DNA from: a virus
Strand: one strand, 5' to 3'
IMG/VR virus record: IMGVR_UViG_3300036828_001091
Coordinates: 1-41,568 of that record
Length of the DNA: 41,568 nt
Positions 1 to 41,568 of this stretch are shown one piece after another. The number at the start of each line of letters is the position of its first letter. The stretch's first letter is position 1. The notes under the pieces are model-generated. The model did not search any database, was not told the DNA's origin, and worked only from the letters and a program-made list of their open reading frames with translations. The translations under genes and the position numbers were made by a program.

Positions 1-1063
1 CCATCATCTCGCACGGGTGCAAGTGCTCCATCACCTCCGGGGTCAATCCATAGATAGGAATTCCGACCACTTCTTTGCGCGTCAGGTGGCTGTAGGGATA
101 ATCGGGCACGCTCAGGACCACGCCGGTGGAAATCCGATCGTAGATCGGTTTCCTTACCGGGCTCCCGTCCACCAGATCGAGTATCCATTCGCAGCAATCT
201 CCAGTGTGCAGGCATTGCTGGATGTTGAAGGTGGGCCACCCTGGCCGCATTGTAAACTCCAGCGGCCAGGGCGTGCCCTTGTCATCGAGGATGCAGTTGA
301 CGTCCACATACCCAGTATGACCCGTGCGGCGGATGTCATCGGTAAGAGGTGCCAAGACTGCGTCGGCAAGCTTCGATGAGCGCACGTACCTTAGCACGGT
401 TCCTTGTTCCCCGGTCGCGCAGCCCAGGTTGCCAGTACATAATTTTTTGAACTCCCAGTTCTCGCACCAGCCCGGAGCCCAGCCCTCGGGGCCGAACCAG
501 CCGCCGACGGCCATCTCGATGCCTTCGACCTTCTCCTGTAGGATGAATGGTCCCTTGAGCTTGCTGTTCTTCTTCCAGCGCTCAAGCATGTAAATCAGAT
601 CGGTGGGACTTTGCGCGACGTAGCTCAGTGCCTTGTCAGCGTCCCCGGAAGGCTTCGAGACGAATGCCCGGTCATTACGCTTTACATGTCGGATGGCGTC
701 GTCGTAATTGTTGAACTCGCGATAAGCCGGGACCTCTATTCCATTCTCCTGCAGCATCTCCATGCCGATGGTGCGGTCCAGCTCCCAATCGGCGCTTTCT
801 ACTGTAGCCCCGCAGACGGCCACGCCTTCGCGGCGAGCCGCAGCCATATTATGAAGATAGGTTGTGTTATCTGTGAGAAATATCAGATCTGCCCACCCGA
901 CGCTGGGGGCGAACTCCTGTATGCGCTGGACCAGCCCTTCGCCGATCCACTTGTTTTTCTCATCCGGGGGATAGAACCAACGCACTGAGTGCCCGTCGCG
1001 CTGGGCGCGCATGACGAAATCGAGGCCATGAGCGTGCTTACTGTCGAGGACCAGAAGCTTCAT
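1..1063 (-). CDS. ATP-grasp ligase, PurD-like (3' end beyond window)
   Basis: The 354 codons seen here have no stop, so the gene continues past the left edge. The fold reads as an ATP-grasp carboxylate-amine ligase resembling phosphoribosylamine-glycine ligase (PurD). An N-terminal Rossmann-like start (MKLLVLDSKHAHG) is followed by an ATP-binding strand with FVSKPSG (about residues 134-140), a lid strand QEKVEGIEMAVGGW (176-189), and a metal-binding segment GYVDVN then LEFTMRPGWPTF (251-279), the equivalent of the PurD Glu/Asn Mg-binding strand. The usual second metal ligand Asn appears to be Thr. The start ATG at 1063 has no clear Shine-Dalgarno; an in-frame TTG lies 18 codons upstream. It follows three internal-virion-type genes in the same direction. 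The substrate cannot be read from sequence: purine synthesis and peptide or capsid modification are both possible. Confidence 0.85.
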   Translation of the reverse strand, partial: MKLLVLDSKHAHGLDFVMRAQRDGHSVRWFYPPDEKNKWIGEGLVQRIQEFAPSVGWADLIFLTDNTTYLHNMAAARREGVAVCGATVESADWELDRTIGMEMLQENGIEVPAYREFNNYDDAIRHVKRNDRAFVSKPSGDADKALSYVAQSPTDLIYMLERWKKNSKLKGPFILQEKVEGIEMAVGGWFGPEGWAPGWCENWEFKKLCTGNLGCATGEQGTVLRYVRSSKLADAVLAPLTDDIRRTGHTGYVDVNCILDDKGTPWPLEFTMRPGWPTFNIQQCLHTGDCCEWILDLVDGSPVRKPIYDRISTGVVLSVPDYPYSHLTRKEVVGIPIYGLTPEVMEHLHPCEMM

Positions 1064-1140
1064 CTTGGGGTTCGTCAGCCAGATCCGCGGGGATCCTGGT
1101 TCCAAACAATTGTCTTAGAAAATGGTCATCTGACAGTTTT

Positions 1141-4108: not shown

Positions 4109-5935
4109 TTATTTTATTTTCACCGACCAGCCTGGAGGCAAGCCGCCTCCGCCTCCACCAGCTGCGGGAGCAGCCCCTGCGGGGGCAGCCGCATCATCTC
4201 CGGTGCCCGACAATACCGGATCGTCGGCGATCCCCGTCAGCGGCTCCAGATTGCGGCCTTTGATACCGTACTGCTCTTCCAGTTGCTGGTACTGTTTGTT
4301 CCAAGTATCCAGCTGCTTCTTGTACGCCGCTGATTTGGTCTTGGCGTCATATTGGAACGTTCTTTTCAGTGTTTCCAATTCTGCCGGCGTTGCCACTCCG
4401 TTGATTACCTTCTCCATCTCCTTTTGCGTGTTTACGGAAAGCGCTGCATTACCCGTGGGACTGTGCAAGAGCCTTCCCAATTCGGATCGCAGGGTCTCCG
4501 CCTGCGCGTTGTACGCGGTTACTGCCGGATCACTGAGCTTACCCCTTGCATAGGCCGCCCAGTCTCTCAGGGGTCTGTATTGCGTGAGGTTCAACGGCTT
4601 GGACAGCTCTATCAGCTTGTCCAGATGCTTGGTCATGGTATCTTCCAGCACCCCGACATTGGCAGATCTGTTCATGAGTTCAGTAGTATTTTTCCTGATC
4701 CCTCCATAGCGCGGATCATTTTTCATCTGTGTCAGCTGGAATTGATCCTGCCTTCTCTGCTCTCCTGCTATTCTTACATCTTCCGATGCTTGTCGATGCC
4801 GCTCCTGCAAGTCCTGCTGATGCAGCGTGTGCTCCTTCAGGAACCGGTTGAACTGCTGCTGCTCCTGCTCGTTCACCAGCTTGAGCAGCTTCTGCATGGC
4901 ACCAAATTTGACGCCCGAAGATGCGTTGGGCATGACCTGATCGATGCGGCGCGCGGCCTGACCGATGGTGAGAGGGCCGTAGCCCTTGTCGCGCGCCTGG
5001 GCGAGGTCCTGCGGGCTGATCTTGCCAATATCTTGCTTCTGGGCCTCAAGCTGGGCCAGCACGGGTGAGGACGGCTCCTGCTGCGGCTGCGGCCCGCCGG
5101 GGCCGCGCGCGGTGGCGCCGCCGGGTCCCTGGTAGCCTACCGAGCGCGCCCAGGGCATGGTGCCGCCCTCGATGCCGGCACCCTCGCCAGTGCGATAGCC
5201 ACCGGCAAATGCCGTCTGCGGCCCGCCGGCATAACCGACCTGCCGCCCGGTGCGCGGGTCCATGGAGGCATTGCCGGTGCCGTAGCCCGCCACGTTCGCC
5301 GGGCTGACCGGGTCGAAGGTGGCCGGCGTCAGCTGCTGCCCCATGTTGGCTCCGGCCATGGCCCGGGTGCTCGACCCAGGATAGTAGTTGGGGTCGGTCA
5401 GGACCGCCTTCAGCGGCACATTGAGGGCACGCGCGCGGTTCAGGAACGTCTCGCCGGTCTGCTGCCGCTTGACCGGATCGTCGCCGGCCTCGGCCGTCAG
5501 CCGGGTGTAGAACAGCCGCGCCGTCTGCGGGTCCTGCAGCTCGTCCTGCTGCTGCTGGCGCCCCGCCCCGAGCAGGCTGGGATTGGGCTGATTAGCCTGC
5601 ATCGAAGCATTGGCCACGTTGCCCACCGGCTGGAACTGAGTGGGTATGACGGGATAGGCGCCGACCATGGTACTCGGATCGTTCCCGGGTGTAGGACCGG
5701 CCCCTCCAGGCGCAGCAGAAGCCCCAGGAGCGGTTTGCGGGGCCTGCTGGCCTCCGGCACCGGACGGGTAGGTATAGTCTGCCCCCAGCCCGCCTACGCC
5801 GCCCAGGGTGGCCGCCTTGAACGCAGCCTCGTCCTCCTGCCGCTTGCGCAGCTTCTCCTGCAGCTCGAACATGCTGGTGACACCCTCGCCGAAGCCGCCG
5901 CCGAACGAGCCGAGGGCACCAAGCGCGCCGAGCAT
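4109..5935 (-). CDS. Internal virion protein with SleB-like hydrolase segment (608 aa)
   Basis: The N terminus is hydrophobic and Gly-rich, followed by a charged helix (about 24-40) and a Pro/Gly/Gln-rich linker. Residues about 146-170 contain LTAEAGDDPVKRQQTGETF then LNRARA, which resembles the active-site helix of SleB-type cell-wall hydrolases (AEA-x-G-P ... VxLNR), with Glu149 as the likely catalytic acid. A Tyr/Pro segment (DPNYYPGSS) follows, as expected for that fold. The second half is helical and Gln-rich (coiled-coil-like, about 340-430) and the end is Gly-rich. The start codon directly abuts the previous gene's TAA. A virion-borne peptidoglycan hydrolase that helps DNA entry is the likely role. 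The hydrolase call rests on motif resemblance only. Confidence 0.7.
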   Translation of the reverse strand: MLGALGALGSFGGGFGEGVTSMFELQEKLRKRQEDEAAFKAATLGGVGGLGADYTYPSGAGGQQAPQTAPGASAAPGGAGPTPGNDPSTMVGAYPVIPTQFQPVGNVANASMQANQPNPSLLGAGRQQQQDELQDPQTARLFYTRLTAEAGDDPVKRQQTGETFLNRARALNVPLKAVLTDPNYYPGSSTRAMAGANMGQQLTPATFDPVSPANVAGYGTGNASMDPRTGRQVGYAGGPQTAFAGGYRTGEGAGIEGGTMPWARSVGYQGPGGATARGPGGPQPQQEPSSPVLAQLEAQKQDIGKISPQDLAQARDKGYGPLTIGQAARRIDQVMPNASSGVKFGAMQKLLKLVNEQEQQQFNRFLKEHTLHQQDLQERHRQASEDVRIAGEQRRQDQFQLTQMKNDPRYGGIRKNTTELMNRSANVGVLEDTMTKHLDKLIELSKPLNLTQYRPLRDWAAYARGKLSDPAVTAYNAQAETLRSELGRLLHSPTGNAALSVNTQKEMEKVINGVATPAELETLKRTFQYDAKTKSAAYKKQLDTWNKQYQQLEEQYGIKGRNLEPLTGIADDPVLSGTGDDAAAPAGAAPAAGGGGGGLPPGWSVKIK

Positions 5936-21262: not shown

Positions 21263-23481
21263 CACGCGACCTTCTGCATCGCACGAGGATCCTGCATCTG
21301 ATCACGCGGGATCATCCCCGGCGGACCCTGCGGCCTGGGCAGTCCGGGCTGGGCGCCAGGACGCGGCTGCCCCGGCACTCCCGGCTGGGCCTGACCGCCG
21401 ATCGCGCCGCCCGGCGCCCCCGGCTGGCCGCCCTGCTGCTGCATCTGCGCCTGCTGCTTCCCTTGCATCTGCTGCATGTGCTTCCAGATATGCGTCTGAA
21501 CTTTTTTCACCGCCCCGGCGCCCGAGCCAGTGACCTGCAGCTGCTGCATCAGCATCCCGTGCGCCATGACGTGCTGCTGGTCGTCGTCCATCTGGTGCGT
21601 GGGCACCTCGAAGCCCTCCCGCAGCAGGAAGTTCTCCTGCTCGACCGGCACCGGCAGCTGCTGCTCCGGTGAGACGAACACCAGCGGCGCTAGCCGCGGC
21701 CCGAACGTATTCTCAACCAGCTGCGTGATCACCGGCACCATGTTGACCTGATAGCCGTTGAGCTGCTGCGGAGGGATGCCACGGATGACGTTCATCGCCG
21801 CAATCTGCTGCTGGATCTGCTGGGCACCACGCGCCTGCTCCACCCCGAACCAGCGGAACTGATAGCGCTTGTCCATCTGAATTGGCGGGATCTTCTCCAT
21901 CTCCGCGCGCAGCCCCATCTCGCCGAAGGCGCGCACGGTGACATCGGCGTTACGATACTGGTGATCCAGCTCCACCATCATCTCGATCATGGGAGTGAGG
22001 ATGCCCTCCTCCATGACCGTCACCGCGTCGGCCGTAGTAAGAATGTCGATCTGCTGCTCCTGCGCGACCTGCGCCTGATTTTGCCGCGTCTTGCCCGCGG
22101 CCGACGTGCCCTGCGTGATCGCAGCTGGACTTACCGCAAGCGTCTGACTGACCTCCTGCTTGCACTCGTTCACCATCGCGAAGCCGTCCTTCCACAGCTG
22201 TGGAAAGTTCACCACCTGCGTATCCTTTGGCGAGGTCTCCCACACCGCAGCCATGCTCATGACCATGGTGCCGACGCGCGGGTTACGCTCCGGGTCGGTC
22301 ATCACGATCGGCAGCAGAGAGTAGCCGGCGCTGTCCCAGGCAAGGTTGACCGCATCGTTCGCGGCGTACTGCATGTCGGCGCAGTCCGCGATCTTGCTGC
22401 GCCCCTTAAAGGAGCTGCCCACCTTCTCGACTGGAGCTGATATGATGGGGATCTTGTCACACCATAATGGATTGCGCCGGCAGCCGAGCACGCGCTCATC
22501 GCCGCCGAAGAACGCCTGACAGAGCAGGTCCTCGCCCTTCACCTCCAGGCGCAGGAACGTCTCGTACACCAGCGCAAATTTCTTGCCGCCCTCGCCCTTG
22601 ATGCCGGCCGCATCCGCCATGTGCTTGGCCTGATGCACCACCTCGGGCGGGCTCTTCTTCGACATCTGATCGATCAGCGCCTCACCCTCATCCTTGCGGA
22701 TGGCGCCGTCGGCGATCATGCGCTTGAGCTTCTCCTTGCCCCACCGCCGTATAACCGTGACACTACCGCCTTCGTCCAGCGCATCTTCAATGTCGTCGGC
22801 AGTAACAGGAAGCACAAGCACGTCGCAGTCCGCCAGTACCTCCACTGCAGGGTAACCCACCTCGATGGTCTCATGCCGGATGTCCATGATCGGAGCCGCG
22901 GCAGGGTTGGGCATGCCCTGCATCAGCTCGGGCTGCACCGGCGCTCGCCACGTCACATGCCGTTTGCGCTCGCACCAGCCGATGTAGACGTTGTATTGCC
23001 CCTCGATATCGCCGGCCTTGCATAAAGCAGGCATGACCTTGGTACGCAGCTTGGCCTTGCGCACGTAATATTCCAGCAGGGACGAGATCGCATCGGGGCG
23101 CGTCCCATCCGAGCTGGTGACCTCGACGTAGCGCCCGGCCTGCGGAAAAATCTGGTTGGTGAACCTTGTCTTGCGCGCATTGACCGCATTATGCACGACC
23201 GGCACGTAGATCTTCGAATTGCCGACGTAGAACTGTTTGCTGCTCAGGGTGCAGTTGTAAGTGTCCCAGTAGTCTTGCTGGTCGTTGCTCCGGTTCCACT
23301 GATCGCGATAGCCGGCATCGATCTCGTCGAACGCCCTGATCAGAGCCTTGCGCACACCGGCGCGCTTGGACAGATCCTGCTTGCGCGAAACCCCGAGCGC
23401 TTCTTCTTCCGCAGTCTCTGCTGCAAGCTCTTCAATGTCATCTTCATCATCCGCATAAGCGGATGCATCATCGCCGGCCAT
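21262..23481 (-). CDS. Portal protein (739 aa)
   Basis: Directly follows terminase with a 14-base overlap. The N terminus is acidic, followed by a conserved helical segment DEIDAGYRDQWNRSNDQQ and a long alpha/beta core (IPIISAPVEKVGSSFKGRSK, then ADCADMQYAANDAVNLAWDS). The helix SQTLAVSPAAITQGTSAAGK is typical of podovirus-like portals. The C-terminal 100 residues are a Gln/Pro/Gly-rich tail (barrel or disordered). Length is usual for N4-type or T7-like portals with a C-terminal extension. It forms the dodecameric DNA gate at the unique capsid vertex. Confidence 0.88.
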   Translation of the reverse strand: MAGDDASAYADDEDDIEELAAETAEEEALGVSRKQDLSKRAGVRKALIRAFDEIDAGYRDQWNRSNDQQDYWDTYNCTLSSKQFYVGNSKIYVPVVHNAVNARKTRFTNQIFPQAGRYVEVTSSDGTRPDAISSLLEYYVRKAKLRTKVMPALCKAGDIEGQYNVYIGWCERKRHVTWRAPVQPELMQGMPNPAAAPIMDIRHETIEVGYPAVEVLADCDVLVLPVTADDIEDALDEGGSVTVIRRWGKEKLKRMIADGAIRKDEGEALIDQMSKKSPPEVVHQAKHMADAAGIKGEGGKKFALVYETFLRLEVKGEDLLCQAFFGGDERVLGCRRNPLWCDKIPIISAPVEKVGSSFKGRSKIADCADMQYAANDAVNLAWDSAGYSLLPIVMTDPERNPRVGTMVMSMAAVWETSPKDTQVVNFPQLWKDGFAMVNECKQEVSQTLAVSPAAITQGTSAAGKTRQNQAQVAQEQQIDILTTADAVTVMEEGILTPMIEMMVELDHQYRNADVTVRAFGEMGLRAEMEKIPPIQMDKRYQFRWFGVEQARGAQQIQQQIAAMNVIRGIPPQQLNGYQVNMVPVITQLVENTFGPRLAPLVFVSPEQQLPVPVEQENFLLREGFEVPTHQMDDDQQHVMAHGMLMQQLQVTGSGAGAVKKVQTHIWKHMQQMQGKQQAQMQQQGGQPGAPGGAIGGQAQPGVPGQPRPGAQPGLPRPQGPPGMIPRDQMQDPRAMQKVA

Positions 23482-25459
23482 CGCTGGTCACCACAGGTCG
23501 CGACGAAATATACTTTCGTCCCTCTGGTGTATAAGCCCAGTTCACCGGCATGTCATCCTCATTCAATCTTGCCGACCTTATTATGGCAGCAAACGACTCG
23601 AGCCCCTCCATCAACACCTTGTAGGGGCCGATCGCGGCCTCCGGCTCCAGCATGCCCTTTCTGCTGACCTCGCGAGCATATCCGCCGGCGAAGGCATTGA
23701 GGCTCCAGCGCGCCTCTGCGCTGACCTGCAAGGCGGGACGGCCGTGGCTCAACCGATTGATCTGAGCGGAAAGCTCCGACCTGCCCGCGGTCACGTCGCC
23801 GCCGCGGGCAGCCTCGGCCGGCAGTGCGCGGATCGCCGCGCGCAACCCTATCGGCGAGAACGAGGCGTAGTGCACAGGCGGGATGAGAAGGCGAGGTCGA
23901 GCGCCAGCATCAAGCGACAGCTCCTGCACCATATCTGCAAGATAGCCTGCGGGCTCCCCTTCTCTGGCCCGGTCTGCCAGTACCACGAGTGCTCCGTCGA
24001 CAAGCTGGACGAGCACCGCGGCAGTGCAACGTCCGTCCGAATTAATGGCCAGCCACGTTGGGCGTCCGGGCCGGCAGCGGAGCCCATCGACAACGTGAGA
24101 GTGATTAAACCCATCGTAGACGGGTTGCCCTGGTCGCAGGGCCAGGGCGTAGGCAAGCGCGTTGGGGATATCGATCCGCCCGGACGGGAACGAGAGGAAC
24201 TGCGCACGAGCCTCGGGACACTCCTTGGCAAAGATCACCTCCCCTGCCTTGAAATAGGGCTGCAGCCCCGTGATGAAATTAAGCTTGCCAGCGGGAGCCT
24301 TCATCGGCCGGATCGGAATGCTGTAGCCTCTTCGCAGCTGCTCGTGGCGCAGGGGCTGCAGGATGAACTCCTCCAGGCCGTCACGCTCGATCCCGATCGC
24401 CACCGGAGAATAAGTCTGGTCGGTCTTGAAGATCTCCGCGACTATCTGGTCGGGCTGCCAGAAACCACACCATGCGTCCCACACAATGAGGCGATTTGAA
24501 AGCCAGCTCCAGACTGCCATCCCAGTTGAAGCAGAGGTCGATTTCACTGACCGAGCGGGGTCGCACATCGCGTAGACAGCGTGCCATGTGCGGACAGTCG
24601 GCTCGACACGGATCAAACCAGCCGTGAACGGTTTGCTCGAAGGATCTTCGCTCTGACACATGTACTCCTGGGCAAACGCAGTCGACATGCCGATGCGGCG
24701 GTAGTCCTCGCGCATGCGGGCGATGTCGTCAAGCGCGAACCGGTCGGGCCAGAGCGGCTGCTCCTCGCCGCTCTCGTTGACGTAGCTGATGGGGAACGTA
24801 CGCGCGACCCAGGCGGGATCGGCGGCGAGCTGGCAGATGAGGCTGCGCGGATTGAGCGGCGTGCCGTTGACGCGGACGGCGGCGCCGGGCTCCAGCGCCG
24901 GGAGCACGACCGCCATCATCCACTGCTTGGTCTTCTCGATCGACTCTGCCGATACACAACTCTCCTCGTTCTCGATGTCGTCGCAGAAGCAGCGGTCGGG
25001 GCGCCAGTCCAGATGCTTGGATCCTCTGAGTGATTGACCTCTTCCGAAGGCCTGGATGATAGCTCCGTTGTTGAGAACGATCTTGCTTTCGCTCCACGTC
25101 GGGCCGACCTGATCGCCGAACAGTTCCTCGATCAGATTGTTGGTTTCTATTTCATGTTTTATTGCACGCAGGCGCTCCACTGCACGCTCGTAGGTCTCGC
25201 CGAGGATGATGCCGTTGTGAAATTTACGTAAGAGGGCCTGTATTATTATGGCCTCCTCGGCCAGCGTGCTCTTGGCCGCGCCGCGGAAGGCCTGGATGAT
25301 CACGCGCTCGTCGCTGCCGTGCCAGAGCTTGACGATCTCGATGTGAAAGCGCGGCGTGTCGTTGGGGTGGCGGTGGCGGAACAGCAGCTGGTGCGCGAGC
25401 CAGGGATCACGAGCAAGGCTCGTGACGACCTCTTCTTTGTCCGGTTCAGAGCCGTTCAA
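23468..25459 (-). CDS. terL: Terminase large subunit with C-terminal extension (663 aa)
   Basis: ATPase domain: Walker A FRGAAKST (58-65), Walker B RCFCDDIE (156-163) with the following Glu, and a coupling segment RVNGTPLNPRS (196-206). RNase-H-like nuclease domain: Asp300 in YAMCDPARS, Glu358 in IGIERDGLEEF and a C-terminal DIPNALAYALAL helix providing the third acidic position. A roughly 190-residue extension follows (from PTWLAINSDGRC), longer than the usual 450-550-residue terminase. The start is TTG at 25459, overlapping the KTSC gene by 14 bases, with AAGGG upstream; no in-frame ATG lies near. It packages DNA into the procapsid at the portal. Confidence 0.92.
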   Translation of the reverse strand: MNGSEPDKEEVVTSLARDPWLAHQLLFRHRHPNDTPRFHIEIVKLWHGSDERVIIQAFRGAAKSTLAEEAIIIQALLRKFHNGIILGETYERAVERLRAIKHEIETNNLIEELFGDQVGPTWSESKIVLNNGAIIQAFGRGQSLRGSKHLDWRPDRCFCDDIENEESCVSAESIEKTKQWMMAVVLPALEPGAAVRVNGTPLNPRSLICQLAADPAWVARTFPISYVNESGEEQPLWPDRFALDDIARMREDYRRIGMSTAFAQEYMCQSEDPSSKPFTAGLIRVEPTVRTWHAVYAMCDPARSVKSTSASTGMAVWSWLSNRLIVWDAWCGFWQPDQIVAEIFKTDQTYSPVAIGIERDGLEEFILQPLRHEQLRRGYSIPIRPMKAPAGKLNFITGLQPYFKAGEVIFAKECPEARAQFLSFPSGRIDIPNALAYALALRPGQPVYDGFNHSHVVDGLRCRPGRPTWLAINSDGRCTAAVLVQLVDGALVVLADRAREGEPAGYLADMVQELSLDAGARPRLLIPPVHYASFSPIGLRAAIRALPAEAARGGDVTAGRSELSAQINRLSHGRPALQVSAEARWSLNAFAGGYAREVSRKGMLEPEAAIGPYKVLMEGLESFAAIIRSARLNEDDMPVNWAYTPEGRKYISSRPVVTSDGRR

Positions 25460-25691
25460 ACGGTGCGCCCTTCAGGTTGGAGTGGAACCAGCCGCCGGGG
25501 GAGCTGGCCTCGGCAAGGCCCGCGGCCATGCCGGCGTCGATGTTGAAATATCTATACACGCGCCCGCCGTGGAACTGGATCTCCAGGGCACGTGCTTCGC
25601 GATCGTAGCGGAAGGCGTCGACGTTGGTGGAGGAGACGTAATGCCACGAATTATCATCCCACCACTCGGAGGCCTCGTCCTCGTCAGCCAT
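25446..25691 (-). CDS. KTSC-domain protein (81 aa)
   Basis: The body matches the KTSC domain pattern: Ser-x-Asn-Val then FRYDREARALEIQFHGGRVY (a beta hairpin), the conserved YRYFNIDAG and a helix ending ASSPGGWFHSNLKG. This small domain occurs alone in many phages and at the N terminus of some lysyl-tRNA synthetases; its biochemical role is not established. The ATG at 25691 overlaps the zinc-ribbon gene by eight bases. It lies directly before terminase. Confidence 0.8.
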   Translation of the reverse strand: MADEDEASEWWDDNSWHYVSSTNVDAFRYDREARALEIQFHGGRVYRYFNIDAGMAAGLAEASSPGGWFHSNLKGAPFERL

Positions 25692-26286
25692 TGTCGTCAA
25701 GCTCCTGATCGATCGTCAAGCCGGTCTCGGAGTCAACATAGGGCTGGAAGACGGGCTTGCGGCGAAACTCCTCCTCCAGATCCAGGGCAGCCTGGGATAC
25801 CGGCAGCTGCGACCGCGGAGCCGCCGCCTCCGCGTCCATCTTCGCCTTCATCTTCGCCTTCCATTGTGCGTGCCACGCCGCATCATCCAGATCTTCCTGC
25901 CTGGGCGCAGGCTCCGGCTCCGGCCGTAAGATGTCAGCGGGCAGAGACAAGCCCAAGCGATCGGCAACGTCCCACGCCCTGCGAGCGGTGCCGTCAGGGG
26001 CGCCACCCTTGTAGCTGCGATCGTAGGTGTGAGCGTCGAAAAAGAAGAGCACCGCGTGACGTTCGACCTCGGGCAGGGTGGGCCAGCCAGGGTGCGCCCG
26101 GAACTCCGCCAGCTGCGCGGCTAAGATGCTCTTCTGGGTGGGACGGGGAAGGGGGGCAGCGGGCTGGATATCATCCCAATGCTCCGTCGTCATGCCTACA
26201 AAGCTACAATTTGGGCAGCTCCGTTTTCTATGGGGATGCATAGATCTGATCACATTTGTTCTAACCTGACATTTTGGGCAGATCAT
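25684..26286 (-). CDS. Zinc-ribbon protein, possible small terminase (200 aa)
   Basis: Starts MICPKCQ with GAGG six bases upstream; a start seven codons earlier lacks a ribosome site. The N terminus (1-32) is a zinc ribbon, CPKC ... CPNC, with the basic loop HPHRKR between, resembling the NrdR-type DNA-binding ribbon. The middle is helical (ILAAQLAEFRAHPGW ... YKGGAPDGTARRAWDVADR) and the C terminus charged. A DNA-binding protein first in the packaging operon, just before terminase, fits a small-terminase or late regulator role. This is inference from position; no family is firmly recognised. Confidence 0.65.
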   Translation of the reverse strand: MICPKCQVRTNVIRSMHPHRKRSCPNCSFVGMTTEHWDDIQPAAPLPRPTQKSILAAQLAEFRAHPGWPTLPEVERHAVLFFFDAHTYDRSYKGGAPDGTARRAWDVADRLGLSLPADILRPEPEPAPRQEDLDDAAWHAQWKAKMKAKMDAEAAAPRSQLPVSQAALDLEEEFRRKPVFQPYVDSETGLTIDQELDDNG

Positions 26287-26306
26287 CGACGCCTCGTTGG
26301 TGCACA

Positions 26307-26367
26307 TGTGGTCTAGCTAGTACTAGCTAGGCCCAGCTAGACCAAGCTAGACCACACTGGACTAGCT
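26307..26367. promoter_or_regulatory. CTAG-rich operator-like repeat array
   Basis: The decamer AGCTAGACCA occurs twice in perfect tandem (26335-26354) and as an inverted copy at 26309-26318, with a fourth inverted copy carrying one mismatch at 26358-26367. An 18-bp perfect palindrome CTAGCTAGTACTAGCTAG lies at 26313-26330, and 12-bp arms TGTGGTCTAGCT/AGCTAGACCACA (26307-26318, 26345-26356) flank it. Eight CTAG tetramers fall in 71 bases. It lies about 20 bases upstream of the zinc-ribbon start and probably controls the leftward operon. Confidence 0.65.
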
Positions 26368-26482
26368 TCTTGTCCAAGGCTAGACACATTTATCAAAACT
26401 TGTAAATCCTCCAACGCCACATTGTACTACACACGTCGGGTTTCTAGGATTGGTTGCGGTTTGCGAACAGGGTCCCTTTTTC
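26368..26482. other. Intergenic stretch, no clear gene
   Basis: Part of the large intergenic region between the leftward and rightward gene blocks. It contains two more CTAG sites (26380 and 26444). I see no convincing coding sequence or strong promoter; open frames across it show no ribosome site and run through the hairpin region. Confidence 0.4.
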
Positions 26483-26508
26483 GAGGCCCCCCTCCCTGGG
26501 GGGGCCTC
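26483..26508 (+). terminator. GC hairpin, terminator-like
   Basis: Arms GAGGCCCCCC (26483-26492) and GGGGGGCCTC (26499-26508) pair perfectly around a short loop and are followed by TTT on the plus strand; TTTTT also lies just before the stem. The shape is that of a Rho-independent terminator, though the T-tract is short. It separates the operator array from the hairpin cluster. Confidence 0.6.
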
Positions 26509-26524
26509 TTTACCCTGAGTTGTG

Positions 26525-26748
26525 CAAGAAGTGCCTGCGCTGCAGGCACTTCTTGTGTCACGCTTGGCGTGACACAAGCCATGCATTCTTGACATACGTC
26601 AAGCGCAAAACACGTAGTGTTTTGCGCTTGACACGCAAGGGGGGAAGGGGGAGGGAGGGGTATTGTTACCCGTGGCGTTACCCGCGGCGCGCAGCGCCGC
26701 GGGTAACGCAACGATTGCAAGTACTTATGGTGCACGTCGACGTGCACC
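26525..26748. repeat. Cluster of perfect hairpins with trinucleotide loops plus G4 motif
   Basis: Four perfect inverted repeats lie almost end to end: 26525-26555 (14-bp arms, loop GCT), 26552-26578 (12 bp, loop TTG, sharing four bases with the first), 26598-26632 (16 bp, loop GTA) and 26675-26709 (16 bp, loop GCA). A 20-bp palindrome GGTGCACGTCGACGTGCACC is at 26729-26748. Between the third and fourth lies a purine run with four G-tracts (26639-26660) matching a G-quadruplex pattern. None of the hairpins has a T-tract. A replication origin or single-strand recognition region is the best reading. Confidence 0.75.
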
Positions 26749-26850: not shown

Positions 26851-26877
26851 GTTGTATTTTTTACAACTTGTGGATAA
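26851..26877. promoter_or_regulatory. DnaA box next to small hairpin; possible origin element
   Basis: TGTGGATAA (26869-26877) is a perfect reverse complement of the DnaA consensus TTATCCACA. It follows an AT-rich hairpin GTTGTA/TACAAC (26851-26867) and precedes about 200 bases of AT-rich DNA, including a TACTA/TAGTA inverted repeat at 26915-26926. A single box can occur by chance, but the setting favours an origin. Confidence 0.5.
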
Positions 26878-27093
26878 CTTTTTAAAACGTCAACAATCAC
26901 AATAGTTTAGAAGGTACTATGTAGTATGTGACCTATTTAGGGTAAAAAGGGCATCTACGGTTTTCGTTTTTTTGTGGCGGGGGACGAGCAAAAACCATTT
27001 TTCAAAACAGGGCTCTCCCCGTTCTCAAATATAGTTATAGGGCCAGTATTGACTACATCTGTGGGTGTGCTAAGGCCTCCTAGTCAACAAACC
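26878..27093. other. AT-rich intergenic leader of early region
   Basis: About 215 bases with long T and A runs and no convincing gene. TTGACT at about 27049 and TATAGT at about 27030 are possible promoter pieces but lack good partners at standard spacing. It would serve as unwinding element and/or early promoter for the ribbon-helix-helix gene. Confidence 0.4.
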
Positions 27094-27108
27094 ATGGAGC
27101 AGATCACA

Positions 27109-27297
27109 ATGAAGGCGCACACGTCCATAAGCTTACCCATTGAACTCATTGCTAAAATAAAGGAGCTTGCTGAGCGCAATCGCCGCTCGTTCAGCGCTGA
27201 GCTGACGGCCATACTTGAGGCAAACCCCGAAGTTCGCCGTGAAATTGCTCGTCTGCGCGCTGCCATGCGCGCTCCAGACACTGAAGAAATTCAATAG
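27109..27297 (+). CDS. Ribbon-helix-helix DNA-binding protein (62 aa)
   Basis: The sequence MKAHTSISLPIELIAKIKEL ... RNRRSFSAELTAILEANPEV has the Arc/MetJ/CopG layout: a short beta strand (TSISLP), helix A, and a helix B beginning with the Ser-rich turn RSFSAEL. Members act as dimeric repressors. GGAG lies nine bases before the chosen ATG; an ATG at 27094 would add five residues. It is the first rightward gene after the origin-like region, so it is a good candidate for the regulator binding the nearby operator array. It is followed by terminator-like hairpins. Confidence 0.8.
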   Translation: MKAHTSISLPIELIAKIKELAERNRRSFSAELTAILEANPEVRREIARLRAAMRAPDTEEIQ

Positions 27298-27312: not shown

Positions 27313-27375
27313 AGCCCGTAAAACCGGGCTCGTAACACCTCGGGGTGGGCATGCGCCAGCATGCCCACCCCGAGG
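27313..27375. terminator. Bidirectional terminator hairpins between convergent genes
   Basis: AGCCCG/CGGGCT (27313-27330) follows a run of A, and a larger perfect hairpin with 17-bp arms (27338-27354 and 27359-27375, loop GCCA) follows directly. They lie between the stop of the rightward ribbon-helix-helix gene and the stop of the leftward 148-aa gene, the expected place for shared termination. Confidence 0.65.
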
Positions 27376-27388
27376 CGACTTTGTCAAC

Positions 27389-27835
27389 TTAAAGCTTGCC
27401 GGCGCACTCCGGGCCGATGCCCCGCTCGATGCTCTCCGGCACCGTGAGCGTGCGCCCGCACCCGCACCTGCCGCAGCGCCCTTCGTGCCAAGCCTTCACG
27501 CTGGCCGGCAGCCTGCCCGCGCTCACCTGCCGCCAGAACCACTTGAACGCGATCACCGAGGGCGCCTGCTCGCCCGCGCAGCTCTTTGCCGTCAAGCGAA
27601 AGCTCATCGGATCGTCCTTAGGGATGATGCCGAGGTAGGAGTAGTCCGAGGTGTTCTCGGGCCCGGTGAGCAAGCTGACGAAATAAACACCTCGTCCGGC
27701 GCGCGTGCCCTCGTCCTTCGATGCGACGACCTTGTAGGTGAAGCGCACGCCGGTGCCGGTGCTCTCGATCGTGAACAGCGCATTACCGGCCAGGACGAAC
27801 TCTCGGACTGCGTTGGGGTCGGTGAACTGTGTCAT
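27389..27835 (-). CDS. Leftward protein with C-terminal Cys motif (148 aa)
   Basis: AGGAG lies eight bases before the chosen ATG (MTQFTDPNAVREFVLAGN). The body is alpha/beta (FTIESTGTGVRFTYKVVASK, later DYSYLGIIPKDDP). The C terminus holds CGRCGCGRTLTVPESIERG followed by IGPECAGKL, a pattern seen in short phage and actinobacterial proteins of the DUF6011 kind, where the Cys residues probably bind zinc. Function unknown. It is the only minus-strand gene between the origin region and 30 kb and is driven by the divergent promoter at 27.88 kb. Confidence 0.75.
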   Translation of the reverse strand: MTQFTDPNAVREFVLAGNALFTIESTGTGVRFTYKVVASKDEGTRAGRGVYFVSLLTGPENTSDYSYLGIIPKDDPMSFRLTAKSCAGEQAPSVIAFKWFWRQVSAGRLPASVKAWHEGRCGRCGCGRTLTVPESIERGIGPECAGKL

Positions 27836-27867
27836 CCTCGTTCTCCTCATTTGTCATCAACAGCTGC

Positions 27868-27909
27868 ATCCTACCACCCCCTTGACAGCTGTCAAGAGCG
27901 ATGTATGAT
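27868..27909. promoter_or_regulatory. Divergent promoters sharing a palindromic -35
   Basis: The 16-bp palindrome CTTGACAGCTGTCAAG (27881-27896) supplies a consensus -35 TTGACA to both strands. Rightward: TTGACA (27882-27887), 16 bases, TATGAT (27904-27909). Leftward: TTGACA (27895-27890), 16 bases, TAGGAT (27873-27868). The two promoters overlap head to head, so they probably compete or share a regulator binding the palindrome. Confidence 0.7.
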
Positions 27910-27937
27910 GTGACCATTGTCAACAAGGAGAACGACG

Positions 27938-32481: not shown

Positions 32482-34290
32482 GTGCAGATCGTCACACTCG
32501 ATTTCGAGACCTTCTACTCGAAGGAATACACGCTCTCGAAGCTCACCACTGAGAGCTACGTCAGAGATCCACGCTTCGAGCCGCACGGCTGCGCTGTGCG
32601 CGGCCCCGATGGCACGACCGGGTGGATACACGCGCTCGATCTGGGCAGGTTCTTTGCCCAGGTCGATTGGTCGAAGCTCGCCATCCTCTGCCACCACGCC
32701 CATTTCGACGGCCTGATCATGTCGCACTACTATCGCGTCAGGCCGAAGGCGTGGCTCGACACGCTCTCGATGTCGCGGCTGGTGCACGGCAACCACATCA
32801 AAAACGGCCTCGACAGCCTCGCTAAGCACTACGGCTTGCCGGCCAAATCTGTTCCTTATAACGCATTCAAAGGGCGGCACTGGGACGAGCTGAGTGGCGT
32901 GACCCAGGAGATGCTTGCCAGGGGCGGCGAGCATGATGTCGAGCTCACCTACGAGCTGTTTACTCGGATGCTGCCCTTCGTGCCAGACGAGGAGCTGCGG
33001 CTGATCGATCTCACCGTACGCATGTTCGTGGAGCCATCGTTGCGCGGCGACGTGGACAAGCTGCGCGAGCTGATCAGGACCGAAGGCCTGCGCAAGACCG
33101 AGCTGCTGGCCGAGCTGAAGCTGCAGCCCGGGGATCTGCAGTCATCCGAGAAATTTGCTACGCTGCTGCGCGCCGAGGGGCTCAATATCCCCACCAAACA
33201 AACTGACAAGGGCGAGGTGTACTGCTTCGCCCGGACCGACAAATTCATGCAGGAGGTCGTACTTGAGCACCCCAACCCGACAATATGTGCACTCGGTGAG
33301 GCTCGACTTGGAATTAAGTCGTCCATTGAGCAAACTCGCGCTGGACGTATTGCGGATATGGCTGACCGAGGTCAACTCCCAGTGTACCTTACGTATTGTG
33401 GCGCGCACACTACCCGCTGGTCGGGGGGAGACCGAGTTAACTGGCAGAATATCAAACGTGGAAGCGCTATCCGTTCATCCATCCGAGCGCCGGCTGGGTA
33501 CAAGATAGTCAAGGCTGACAAGTCGCAGGTCGAGTGCCGCTTTCTCAATTTCCTCGCCGGACAGGACAGCGTGATCGAACGCTTCCGCCGCAAGGAAGAT
33601 CCCTACACCACGATCGCGAGCGCAGTTTATGGCGAGGACGTCTACAAGCCGAAGGAGGGCGATCCGCGCTATGCCGAGATGTTAGCCAAGCGCGGTACCG
33701 GTAAGCAGCTGGAGCTGTCATGCGGCTATGGCGCCGGTGCCCAGACGATAAAGATCACCGCGGCACGGGGGACCTATGGCCCGCCGGTATCAATCGACGA
33801 CGCGACCGCCGTGCACTGGCGCAACGTCTACCGCAAGACCCACAACGCGGTGGTCAACTACTGGTACCAAGCCGAGCAACTGTTTGACAAGCTGCAGCGG
33901 AAGTTGACTTTCAGCTGGTCGATCTTCGAGTGCCGTGGCGGCGCTATCTACCTGCCCAACGGCACCGCGCTGCAGTATCCCGATATCGAGTACAAGCCCG
34001 ACGGCTGGTGCTACCGGGGACGCTATGGCTTGCGCCGGCTGTGGGGAGGCTTTCTGGTCGAGAACCTGATCCAGGCAGTGAGCCGCATCGACATGGGGCA
34101 GTGCATGCTGCGCATCGCCGCCAACTACCGTATCGTGCTGATGGAGCATGATGCGGTCGGTGTGCTGGTGCGCGAGCAGACAGCAGAACAGGACCTGCAG
34201 GTGATCCTCGAAGAGATGCGGCGGCCACCTGCATGGCTGCCCGATATCCCGCTCGACGCCGAGGCGACGATGGGAGAGACCTACTCATAG
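32482..34290 (+). CDS. Family A DNA polymerase with 3'-5' exonuclease (602 aa)
   Basis: GTG start. Exonuclease motifs: Exo I LDFETFYS (6-13), Exo II CHHAHFDGLI (70-79), Exo III EHDVELTY (150-157). Polymerase motif A KADKSQVECR (344-353) with the metal Asp346; the usual Tyr after Asp is Lys. Motif B (O helix): Arg404, Lys408 and Tyr416-Gly in RGTGKQLELSCGYGAG. Motif C MEHDAVG (554-560) with Asp557. Compact phage-type replicative polymerase without a 5' nuclease. It works with the primase-helicase and nucleases encoded downstream. Confidence 0.93.
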   Translation: MQIVTLDFETFYSKEYTLSKLTTESYVRDPRFEPHGCAVRGPDGTTGWIHALDLGRFFAQVDWSKLAILCHHAHFDGLIMSHYYRVRPKAWLDTLSMSRLVHGNHIKNGLDSLAKHYGLPAKSVPYNAFKGRHWDELSGVTQEMLARGGEHDVELTYELFTRMLPFVPDEELRLIDLTVRMFVEPSLRGDVDKLRELIRTEGLRKTELLAELKLQPGDLQSSEKFATLLRAEGLNIPTKQTDKGEVYCFARTDKFMQEVVLEHPNPTICALGEARLGIKSSIEQTRAGRIADMADRGQLPVYLTYCGAHTTRWSGGDRVNWQNIKRGSAIRSSIRAPAGYKIVKADKSQVECRFLNFLAGQDSVIERFRRKEDPYTTIASAVYGEDVYKPKEGDPRYAEMLAKRGTGKQLELSCGYGAGAQTIKITAARGTYGPPVSIDDATAVHWRNVYRKTHNAVVNYWYQAEQLFDKLQRKLTFSWSIFECRGGAIYLPNGTALQYPDIEYKPDGWCYRGRYGLRRLWGGFLVENLIQAVSRIDMGQCMLRIAANYRIVLMEHDAVGVLVREQTAEQDLQVILEEMRRPPAWLPDIPLDAEATMGETYS

Positions 34291-38720: not shown

Positions 38721-38747
38721 TCCGGCGCAGGAGCATCCTGCGCCGGA
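38721..38747. terminator. Perfect 12-bp hairpin with GCA loop
   Basis: TCCGGCGCAGGA and TCCTGCGCCGGA flank GCA. It lies 12 bases after the 331-aa gene stop and 36 bases before the primase start, with no T-tract. The geometry (perfect arms, three-base loop) matches the hairpins at 26.5-26.7 kb, and the loop is the same GCA as one of them. Terminator or recognition element. Confidence 0.55.
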
Positions 38748-38782: not shown

Positions 38783-41568
38783 ATGGACCTCGTGGGCTTT
38801 CTGCGGCACGTTTGGCCTGATGAAGGTTGGAAATGCACCGCAGTAAAGCTCGCAAAGGGATACGCCCACCACTTCACCGAGACCGCGGAAGAAGCCGCGG
38901 AGTACATGCTGCAGCAGGACGCGCTGGAGCGCACGGTCTATTTCGCAATCTCGGTGTTCAAGACTACCGTCAACCGCAGGGGCGAGAATGCTCTTTGTAC
39001 CAAGGTCCTGCCACTCGACATCGATGTCGGCGAGGACAAGCCATATAAGACAAGAGCCGAAGCGTCAGCAGCACTGACAGATTTCCTGGCCGAGCATCGC
39101 CTGCCCGATCACACCATCGTCCACAGCGGCCCGGTGGGGTTGCATGGCTATCTTGTGCTCGACGCACCGCTTCCGCCCGAGCGCTGGAAGCCGCTCGCGC
39201 TTGCTTACAAAGATTTGTGCATACGGAGCGGCCTGCATATCGATCCCTCGCGCTCGGCCGACCTTGCCGGAGTGATGCGGCCCCCGGGCACGCATCACCG
39301 CAAGGGCTCACCCTATCCGGTGCAGGTCGCGCATGTGGCGGAGCCGTTTTGGGCGGGGGATCTTGCGTTTGAGCCGCAGGTCCACCTGCAGCGGGAACGC
39401 AAGTATGGCCTTATCGACTATGCGCCGGTGTACGACAATCGACCCAGTGATCCGAACAAGGTGGCCGCCGGCTGCGCGCAGATTGCCGAGGTGCGCGACA
39501 AAAAGCGGGATGTTTCGTACGAGCAGTGGCTTTGGGCGATATGGGTCTTGCATCACTGCACCGATGGCGACGAGGTCGTGCACGAGTGGTCGAACTGGCA
39601 TCCTACTTATTCCGAGGAGATAACGGACCACAAGCTTGCAGAGGATAAACCACCTGTTCTTTGTACGACCTTCCATCGCACCAACCCCAATCATTGTCTC
39701 AGCTGCAAGCATTGGGGCAATATCAAAACTCCGCTGGAACTAGGACGCGAAGCGGGTGCAGATCTGGTTTTGATGAACGGTCAAGCTGCTGCGTCCTCGT
39801 TCATCAATGACGAGAAGGGGCTGCGGTACAGAACCGAGAGCAAAAAGGGGGATCCGGTAGAGATCAGGATCAGCCGCTGGCCGATCCATGTACGCTTCGT
39901 TTCCCGCGGCGAGCGCAATGACGATGAGTTCGGGTTGCTGCTGGAGCTGGAAATGCCCCACACCGGCAAGCTTCCATTGCGGATAGCTTCCGGCGTACTT
40001 GCCTCGGCGCAGGCGATGCCCGAGCTGCACCGCATGGGGGCGGTGATCCACGAGCCTGACTTGTTCCGCAAATACGTGAGACAACAGATGGACGAATTTC
40101 ATGGGAGCAACGCGCCGCAGACGCGCTACGACCAGTTTGGCTGGAAAGACTTCGACAACTCTTTCTTATTTGGCAATCAGCTCTACACCCCGACGCAGAT
40201 CCTTCCCTGCGCCGGCTCGCCGGAGATCGAGCGCCGTTCGCGTCTGCTCGGTCCCCGCGGGGGCTCTCTCAAGGCTTGGACTGCCGCAGCCAATACACTC
40301 TTCGCTGCTGGATGTGAGCCGCATAGCTTCGCACTATGCTGCGCATTCGGGGCGGTGCTTATGCATTTTCACTCCGAAGAAGGCGGTGCGATCGTCAATC
40401 TCATCTCAGAGCAAAGCGCCACTGGCAAGACCACCGGACTTGAGGCTATTGCAAGCGTATGGGGCGAGATGGACGGCATTCGTCTTACTGATGACGACAC
40501 GCGGGTATCCCGGGGCCTGCTCCTGGGTGCTCTGGGTAATCTTCCCTGCGTATTTGACGAACTGCATCGCCGCGATCCCGACGTCATCCGGCAGTTTGTC
40601 ATCATGTTCACGAACGGCCGCGACAAGCGCCGCGGGCGCCCCGATGGGACATTACGCGAGCCTGCCGGCGCGTGGCAGACCATACTCGTTCTGGGGTCCA
40701 ACGTCTCGATCGTCGACATCATGCAGGCGCAGGCCACCGAAGAAGCGCAGGCCTATCGCATCCTAGAATTTGTGGCCACTCAAAGCTTCTCCGGCAACGA
40801 AGGCGATCGGCTCCGCCGCGAGCTGCGCGCCAACAGCGGCCACGCAGGACATGCGTTCCTGAAATTCCTGATGCAGCCCGGTGTGCTGGAGCTGACCCGC
40901 CGCGAGCTGGACAATGCCATGGAGAGCCTGTGGGCGGAAAAATACGGGTTCGACAAGCGCCATCGGTTCTGGGTGCGCTGCATCGCCTGCGCCCTGGTAG
41001 CTGGCCGCATCGTCAATCACATGGGGCTGCTCAATTTCGACTACGAGCGGGTGATCAATTGGACGATCGCGCGCTGCCAGAACCGTAACATCAACGAGGT
41101 CAAACGCGACTACGTGCAGGTGCTCAACGAGGCGCTGTACGAGCTGTACGCCTACACTCTGGTGGTCGACAAGGAGTGGGTGTCAGGCATGGCGTGCTTG
41201 GTATTAGGTGCACCGCGCGGCAATGCCGGCATGTTCGCCCGGCGCGTGCGCGACAGCGGGCGCATGTACATCGCGCGCACGTGGCTGCGCAAGTGGCTGA
41301 CCGAGCGCATGGTCAACCGCACCAGCTTCATCAACCAGCTCACCGATCTGAAGGTCATCGTCAATCAGAATAAATTCATCACTCTCGGCGCCGGTACCGA
41401 TCACAACGTCGGCGGACAGATCGCCTGCTTCGAGATCGACATGCACCACGAGCTGATGAACGAGGCAGTGCTCAAGTCCGAGGATACGCTGCCTGCGAAG
41501 GTTAAGAATGCGCGCCCGCTCGGGGCCATCATTCAGTTTCAGCGCAAAGCAACTTCAGCTTTTCCTCC
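38783..41568 (+). CDS. Primase-helicase fusion: primase-polymerase N terminus and DUF927-like ATPase (3' end beyond window)
   Basis: At least 928 codons without a stop. N terminus (about 1-190): archaeo-eukaryotic primase style, with VLPLDIDVGEDKPY (acidic D-x-D), VHSGPVGLHGYLVLD and RSADLAGVMRPPGTHHRKGS, the PrimPol Arg/Pro-Gly-Thr segment. A PriCT-like helix (YEQWLWAIWVLHHC) and a Cys/His cluster NHCLSCKHW follow. From about 450 the sequence is DUF927-like: FGWKDFDNSFLFGNQLYTPT, Walker A SEQSATGKTTGL and Walker B LPCVFDEL, with a later sensor-like LVLGSN. It combines primer synthesis and unwinding for the family A polymerase upstream. Confidence 0.88.
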   Translation, partial: MDLVGFLRHVWPDEGWKCTAVKLAKGYAHHFTETAEEAAEYMLQQDALERTVYFAISVFKTTVNRRGENALCTKVLPLDIDVGEDKPYKTRAEASAALTDFLAEHRLPDHTIVHSGPVGLHGYLVLDAPLPPERWKPLALAYKDLCIRSGLHIDPSRSADLAGVMRPPGTHHRKGSPYPVQVAHVAEPFWAGDLAFEPQVHLQRERKYGLIDYAPVYDNRPSDPNKVAAGCAQIAEVRDKKRDVSYEQWLWAIWVLHHCTDGDEVVHEWSNWHPTYSEEITDHKLAEDKPPVLCTTFHRTNPNHCLSCKHWGNIKTPLELGREAGADLVLMNGQAAASSFINDEKGLRYRTESKKGDPVEIRISRWPIHVRFVSRGERNDDEFGLLLELEMPHTGKLPLRIASGVLASAQAMPELHRMGAVIHEPDLFRKYVRQQMDEFHGSNAPQTRYDQFGWKDFDNSFLFGNQLYTPTQILPCAGSPEIERRSRLLGPRGGSLKAWTAAANTLFAAGCEPHSFALCCAFGAVLMHFHSEEGGAIVNLISEQSATGKTTGLEAIASVWGEMDGIRLTDDDTRVSRGLLLGALGNLPCVFDELHRRDPDVIRQFVIMFTNGRDKRRGRPDGTLREPAGAWQTILVLGSNVSIVDIMQAQATEEAQAYRILEFVATQSFSGNEGDRLRRELRANSGHAGHAFLKFLMQPGVLELTRRELDNAMESLWAEKYGFDKRHRFWVRCIACALVAGRIVNHMGLLNFDYERVINWTIARCQNRNINEVKRDYVQVLNEALYELYAYTLVVDKEWVSGMACLVLGAPRGNAGMFARRVRDSGRMYIARTWLRKWLTERMVNRTSFINQLTDLKVIVNQNKFITLGAGTDHNVGGQIACFEIDMHHELMNEAVLKSEDTLPAKVKNARPLGAIIQFQRKATSAFP

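Follow-up and report, generated by a model that had tools for sequence, protein, structure and literature searches.

The stretch of DNA analysed here (the window) is the record of an uncultured tailed phage, 41,568 bases long. Its genes form two divergent blocks (Table 1), separated by a gap of about 785 bp that extends from position 26308 to the ATG at 27094. No open reading frame with coding-like codon usage was detected in this gap, and the original prediction of the largest gene-free gap between divergent blocks was thereby borne out. The hairpins situated in the gap were found outside any gene, which disposes of the concern, raised with that prediction, that they might belong to one. In every syntenic relative, too, this non-coding gap separates the terminase block from the replication block.

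The first gene of the leftward block (25684-26307, minus strand) has a zinc-ribbon-like stretch at its start and a weak FmdB-family match; a search for its relatives among viral contigs found none. A CTAG-rich imperfect inverted repeat (26307-26356; 25-nt arms, 84%) occupies the left edge of the gap. On the other side, the gap is adjoined by a ribbon-helix-helix gene (26974-27297, plus strand), whose best match is PHROG 795, labelled partition protein; its product is a possible binder of the dyads described below. A gene at 2-1105 (minus strand) has its counterpart after the DUF927 gene in contigs L020, L024 and L037, so the ends of the window (1-1105 and 38783-41568) probably join, and the record is probably a near-complete, circularly mapping genome.

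Table 1. Gene blocks, selected genes and features of the non-coding gap in the window
Feature	Position	Strand	Description
Leftward block			KTSC-domain gene, large terminase, portal-like gene, capsid gene, tail genes
Large terminase	23468..25459	-	Conserved part of the leftward block starts here
Frame, left part, GGATTGGTTGCGGTTTGCGAACAGGGTCCC	26447..26476	+	GCG and GTCC(C) kept clade-wide (alignment of 9 clade members)
GC-rich hairpin, GAGGCCCCCC TCCCTG GGGGGGCCTC	26483..26508	+
CCTGAGTT	26514..26521	+	Kept as CCYRAGTT / CTTGAGTT; adjoins the left side of the array
Hairpin 1	26525-26555		14-bp perfect arms, loop GCT
Hairpin 2	26552-26578		12-bp perfect arms, loop TTG
TTGACATACGTCAA dyad	26589..26602		Overlaps the left edge of hairpin 3
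Hairpin 3	26598-26632		16-bp perfect arms, loop GTA, C(GTA)G
G-quadruplex-type tract GGGGGGAAGGGGGAGGGAGGGG	26639..26660	+
Hairpin 4	26671-26713		16-bp perfect core (26675-26709) within 20-bp arms that contain one mismatch; loop GCA, C(GCA)G
Palindrome GGTGCACGTCGACGTGCACC	26729-26748		20 bp, perfect, after the four hairpins
Second G-run in the gap	26979..26983	+
Rightward block			Family-A DNA polymerase, RecB-like exonuclease, small endonuclease, SNF2 helicase, DUF927 protein
Family-A DNA polymerase	32482..34290	+	In the rightward replication block
Putative primase-helicase (DUF927)	38783..41568	+	Runs off the window; candidate user of the array

The array consists of four perfect inverted repeats with arms of 14, 12, 16 and 16 bp and 3-nt loops within 185 bp. 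All four, with the predicted loops and the 20-bp palindrome, were recovered where they had been placed, and the sharing of four bases by two of them was confirmed (26552-26555, hairpins 1 and 2); two hairpins sharing 4 bases also occur in the relative L101. The description of the elements as lying almost end to end applies to this overlapping pair but not to the later elements, which are spaced by 19, 42 and 19 nt. Three further features, the GC-rich hairpin, the CCTGAGTT element and the G-quadruplex-type tract, were absent from the original prediction.

Chance formation of such repeats is improbable: perfect arms of at least 12 bp with a 3-nt spacer are expected 0.004 times in the whole window and 2e-5 times in 224 bp, and the shuffled region yielded zero hairpins with arms of at least 10 bp and loops of 3-8 nt. 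Folded as DNA, the segment 26470-26790 gives a z-score of -9.4. Rho-independent terminators were considered and rejected, as a T-tract is missing from all four hairpins on both strands, in agreement with what had been predicted. Two further perfect hairpins were observed elsewhere in the window: one of 17 bp with loop GCCA (27338-27375), between convergent genes and beside a leftward terminator-like stem, and one of 12 bp with loop GCA (38721-38747), between two genes of the same direction, a short way ahead of the primase-helicase gene.

The orthologous gap in relatives was located via the large terminase gene; the close relative L055/L101 was reached via the DUF6011 gene and further clade members via a terminase profile. 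Nine other clade contigs, with terminases 69-72% identical, contain this gap, and eight of the nine have hairpins there (seven if the near-identical pair L104/L107 is counted once). The array is thus present at the orthologous place in the window and in L096, L098, L099, L101 (=L055), L103, L104/L107 and L106, and is absent from L100, which keeps the frame and the G-tract. No hairpin array was found in 39 more distant phages: relatives with terminases at most 61% identical have the same gap, often with a CCYGAGTT element, and no array. On the terminase tree, the array corresponds to one gain (clade support 100/100) and one loss. Single-stranded DNA folding follows this distribution, with z-scores from -3 to -11.5 in carriers, -0.25 in L100 and from -1.2 to +1.7 in seven distant relatives.

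Most clade members are metagenome fragments. L098, L103, L104 and L106 end in the gap, to the right of the array, at differing positions, which are probably assembly breaks; an assembly artefact is unlikely as the source of the array, because contigs from many metagenomes carry it independently. Gap DNA had no match among 50,697 phage records. The DNA pattern of the hairpin 1 stem matched only known clade members among viral contigs, and its matches in ten scattered bacterial genomes from unrelated phyla gave no host clue; the terminase had no match among genome contigs and thus pointed to no host. A search with the G-tract pattern yielded no additional contigs. No report of hairpin arrays of this kind was found in the open-access literature.

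The hairpins are set in a conserved frame. From left to right, it starts in the clade with a GC hairpin or C/G run and continues with CCYRAGTT or CTTGAGTT; 1-3 hairpins separate this element from GGGGGGAGGGGG or a similar tract, to the right of which more hairpins and AT-rich repeats usually follow. Every clade member has the GC hairpin or C/G run at this place, followed by a T-run in L096, L098 and L100 only. G6AG3-6 is found at the position of the G-tract in L098, L100, L101, L103, L104, L106 and L107; in L096 and L099 the tract is altered to a G-run beside TCCCCCC, and these two have a G6-7 run, placed similarly to the second G-run of the window, in the loop of a 22-23-bp hairpin.

Several dyads and repeats were noted around the frame and in other contigs. 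Dyads similar to TTGAC-N4-GTCAA occur in the relatives' arrays and at position 27882 of the window, besides the TTGACATACGTCAA dyad at hairpin 3. At 27882-27923 the palindromic TTGACAGCTGTCAA supplies the -35 hexamers of two divergent sigma-70-like predicted promoters, one for the DUF6011 gene (27389-27850, minus strand) and the other for the genes from 27917 (plus strand); this dyad is probably an operator. In the orthologous gap of distant relatives (L016, 7052-7076; L018, 2179-2199; L034, 5963-5983) a dyad TTATGCTCA-NNN-TGAGCATAA with varying 3-nt centres (AAG, TAT) looks like a regulator operator. L033, a distant polA relative, contains the stem GGACAAACGGAG three times with different 5-nt loops (522-550, 2569-2597, 4779-4811), and this stem is a dispersed repeat.

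The left part of the frame extends beyond the clade. The CCYRAGTT / CTTGAGTT element is found in many distant relatives without hairpins, and the non-coding element at 26440-26525 of the window, a C/G-rich stretch plus CCYGAGTT, is kept in L010, L015, L016, L017, L018, L023 and L026; distant relatives add GTAGCTTATTAG and CATAAAAATT further left. It is retained at the gap across phages merely 40-60% identical in terminase and is perhaps a late promoter or a pac site. That the array itself is a packaging site (pac or cos region) for the terminase encoded beside the gap is improbable. Its position just upstream of the leftward block with the KTSC gene and large terminase agrees with such a role, as does the CCYGAGTT plus C/G-rich element common to distant relatives, but the hairpins are missing in distant relatives with the same terminase type, and the conserved element, not the array, could be the pac site. 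A cos site was rejected: the window, G003, G007, G008 and other large contigs cross the gap without a break and have their ends elsewhere, and therefore no fixed genome end is located there.

Loop size was evaluated in nine gaps (4.6 kb; L107 was omitted as a near copy of L104) for perfect arms of at least 9 bp. The gaps contain 38 perfect inverted repeats, with spacers of 3 nt (21/38), 0 nt (8/38) or other lengths (9/38); simulation gave 0.02 spacer-3 repeats. In 82 kb of other sequence of these phages, 4 of 22 repeats have spacer 3. It had been proposed that the arms would covary in relatives while the loop stays at three bases. Arms do change while hairpins with mostly 3-nt loops persist, so that selection on DNA or RNA shape, as originally suggested, is well supported; a loop length fixed at three does not hold, given the other spacers and the loss of hairpins in L100.

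Turnover of the arms is rapid. The genes flanking the gap are 92% identical at the DNA level between L098 and L099, yet the hairpins of the two are entirely different between conserved blocks. Pairing is nevertheless almost complete, with 10 mismatches in 469 stem positions (about 98% paired), at most 3 of which are G-T on either strand. Stem lengths range from 10 to 27 bp across arrays, without a common sequence. The claim of unrelated arm sequences needs qualification, however, as one stem recurs in relatives: that of hairpin 1 in the window, AGAAGTGCCTGC, is found with loop AGC in L101, L103 (one compensated pair) and L106, and as AAGTGCCCGT with loop GAA in L104. This stem lies to the left of the G-tract in the window and to the right of it in L101, L103, L104 and L106. 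Within the part shared by these five sequences (AAGAAGTGCCTGC), three pairs are changed on both sides, the statistics being modest for a comparison of this size. The pentamer AAGTG was observed inside the shared stem (upstream positions 901-927 and 1185-1209 in L101; 26526-26553 in the window). AAGTG is the iteron reported for the SCC helicase Cch2 (PMC7581432); the match, a 5-mer, is possibly a coincidence.

Loops may also be reversed. In the roughly 1.7 kb that surround the left part of the gap, L104 and L107 differ at a few single bases and in one cluster, in which loop TTT is replaced by its exact reverse complement AAA between identical arms. Likewise, the core stem of hairpin 1 encloses GCT in the window and the reverse complement AGC in L101, L103 and L106. 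The TTT/AAA swap is a sign of hairpin inversion, to judge from these sequences. Interstrand template switching is the known explanation of such inversions and also yields perfect stems and simultaneous compensatory changes (PMC8794818); the perfect pairing could therefore result entirely from mutation. The array would then be a by-product of a replication-pausing site, where template switching repeatedly makes and perfects repeats that have little or no function. This is thought quite unlikely, even though loop inversions, instant perfect pairing and fast arm turnover are published footprints of template switching (PMC8794818) and L100 survives without hairpins. The array persists in seven distinct relatives at one place with a preference for 3-nt spacers and GNA loops, a hot spot alone does not explain the fixed frame and several retained hairpins, and the published compensatory template switches favour 4-nt loops, though these data are specific to rRNA (PMC8794818). 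Because several hairpins persist at one place in distinct relatives and 3-nt spacers and GNA loops are preferred, the sequence pattern argues for selection acting on the array as well as mutation.

Loops of the form GNA or its complement make up 9 of 15 distinct cases against an expected 1/8, for a motif picked post hoc. GNA triloops are especially stable in DNA, a view that also draws on the sheared G:A pair in the loop of the N4 promoter (PMC4496689). The absence of T-tracts, the rarity of G-U pairs, the three-base and GNA loops and the tolerance of loop inversions favour action of the hairpins at the DNA rather than the RNA level. The same features weigh against hairpins that function in a leader or small RNA across the gap, as stabilisers, RNase III sites, terminators or antitermination sites: T-tracts are lacking behind the array hairpins, G-U pairs are nearly absent in the 469 stem positions, the loops are not RNA tetraloops, an RNA loop would be altered freely by loop inversion, and Rfam gave 0 matches above the gathering score in the window. 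A role in RNA is therefore regarded as unlikely, despite the fact that transcripts must start in the divergent gap, that the gap folds strongly as RNA (z -8.4) and that the GC hairpin plus T-run of L096, L098 and L100 resembles a rightward terminator.

Three-base loops are also found in the hairpin promoters of phage N4, where the loop contains a sheared G:A pair and the hairpin geometry allows extrusion at physiological supercoiling (PMC4496689). By analogy, hairpins with 3-nt loops extruded by supercoiling could be bound by a phage RNA polymerase or regulator. The three-base loops and the C-G-closed GNA loops of hairpins 3 and 4 are as in N4 extrusion (PMC4496689), but this explanation is very improbable: the stems are 10-27 bp rather than short, no common sequence lies beside the loops, and no open reading frame approaches the approximately 3,500 aa of N4 vRNAP (the largest have 988 and 928+ aa). 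No RNA polymerase family matched among the scanned proteins; the record may miss a short stretch at its ends.

Taken together, these data suggest a role for the folded DNA as such, most likely in the initiation of DNA replication. The N-terminus of the DUF927 protein contains an invariant DxD and a conserved SGxGxHxYW, motifs typical of archaeo-eukaryotic primases, and of 12 homologues, 4 match LigD_Prim-Pol and 1 matches PriCT_1. The C-terminal part matches solved helicases of the SaPI Rep/SCC Cch kind (8tch, E 5e-23; 5dgk, E 1e-21); the helicase is MCM-like, of the Cch/SaPI-Rep type, and not SF3. Stem-loop origins are associated with primase-helicases of the type that these phages encode, and for this reason a function of the array as an origin or single-strand initiation site is plausible. 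It is given close to an even chance, though slightly less, that the array is the hairpin part of the phage replication origin region, acting at the DNA level. Against this, L100, inside the clade, lacks hairpins, which are thus not strictly required; outside the clade, phages with replication genes of the same type lack the array; the array is about 12 kb from the rep gene; and a mutational hot spot could make and maintain perfect hairpins without selection. No stem-loop 3' of the rep gene was found in the seven relatives examined. A DnaA-dependent origin was rejected: the single perfect box in the gap, TTATCCACA (26869-26877), is not common to the clade. GC skew was left out as support, since it is confounded by gene orientation.

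If the array is part of an origin, the repeats would fold as cruciforms or single-strand hairpins under negative supercoiling or upon origin melting. The phage primase-helicase (or host proteins) could read the hairpin shape to load and prime, and the phage family-A polymerase would extend after priming. Template switching at the hairpins would produce the perfect pairing and loop flips, and selection would retain hairpins with short, stable DNA loops. A more specific form of this scheme is doubtful: a double-stranded DNA phage lineage would have an origin or other control site set by shape, in which interchangeable triloop DNA hairpins form a bank beside a G-quadruplex tract and are read by the primase-MCM-like helicase, and template switching would continually rewrite and flip the arms while the site stays functional.

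Protein-recognised sites are usually found through the conservation of their sequence. In this clade, a hairpin architecture with a preferred 3-nt loop is retained through near-complete sequence turnover; this offers a clean natural experiment on whether proteins of replication or packaging can recognise DNA by its shape alone. In addition, the reversed loops document inversion of hairpins in phage genomes directly at the sequence level, with natural replicates from which inversion rates could be measured.

The array shares properties with several known systems. Its G-tract resembles mitochondrial CSB II in the order G-run, single A, G-run beside a putative replication region (PMC5027508); this is a resemblance only. 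Perfect stems, simultaneous compensatory changes and loop inversions are shared with template-switch-made hairpins, which are described for rRNA and microRNA genes (PMC8794818), whereas the phage case is a DNA array, at a single locus, that strongly prefers spacer 3. The N4 early promoters likewise have 3-base DNA hairpin loops of a stable G..A type, thought to extrude under negative supercoiling (PMC4496689). However, the solved N4 promoter complex has a 7-bp stem with conserved loop and stem bases (PMC4496689), in contrast to array stems without shared sequence, and the phages have arrays instead of single promoters and no N4-type virion RNA polymerase. The RSF1010 ssiA and ssiB single-strand initiation sites are also stem-loops, which are exposed in single-stranded form and serve as recognition sites for priming (PMC4234260). 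They are a pair of short stem-loops read by RepB', whereas the arrays contain 2-6 hairpins whose sequence varies, and a homologue of RepB' was not identified.

The pRN1 origin shows the greatest number of parallels. Its stem-loop is required for replication and is conserved in structure, not in sequence, between conserved flanks; stem symmetry matters, and the replication protein has a primase of the archaeo-eukaryotic superfamily (PMC4234260). A similar stem-loop lies 3' of the replication gene in Bordetella phage BIP-1/BPP-1 (PMC4234260). In the phages, too, variable sequence that always folds (with the exception of L100) lies between conserved flanks, and the same element encodes a putative fusion of an archaeo-eukaryotic-type primase and a helicase. 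Unlike pRN1, with one stem-loop of about 100 nt, the array comprises several short hairpins with 3-nt loops; the phage helicase is of the MCM-like Cch/SaPI-Rep type, not SF3, and the origin role here is putative. The origins of pRN1, BIP-1 and SaPIs are situated just 3' of the rep gene, whereas the array is located about 12 kb away in a divergent gap. The array repeats the pRN1 pattern in multi-hairpin form, and an origin recognised by shape is therefore the best reading; if the array is an origin, tailed phages would add a multi-hairpin form to the idea of stem-loop origins that comes from pRN1 plasmids.
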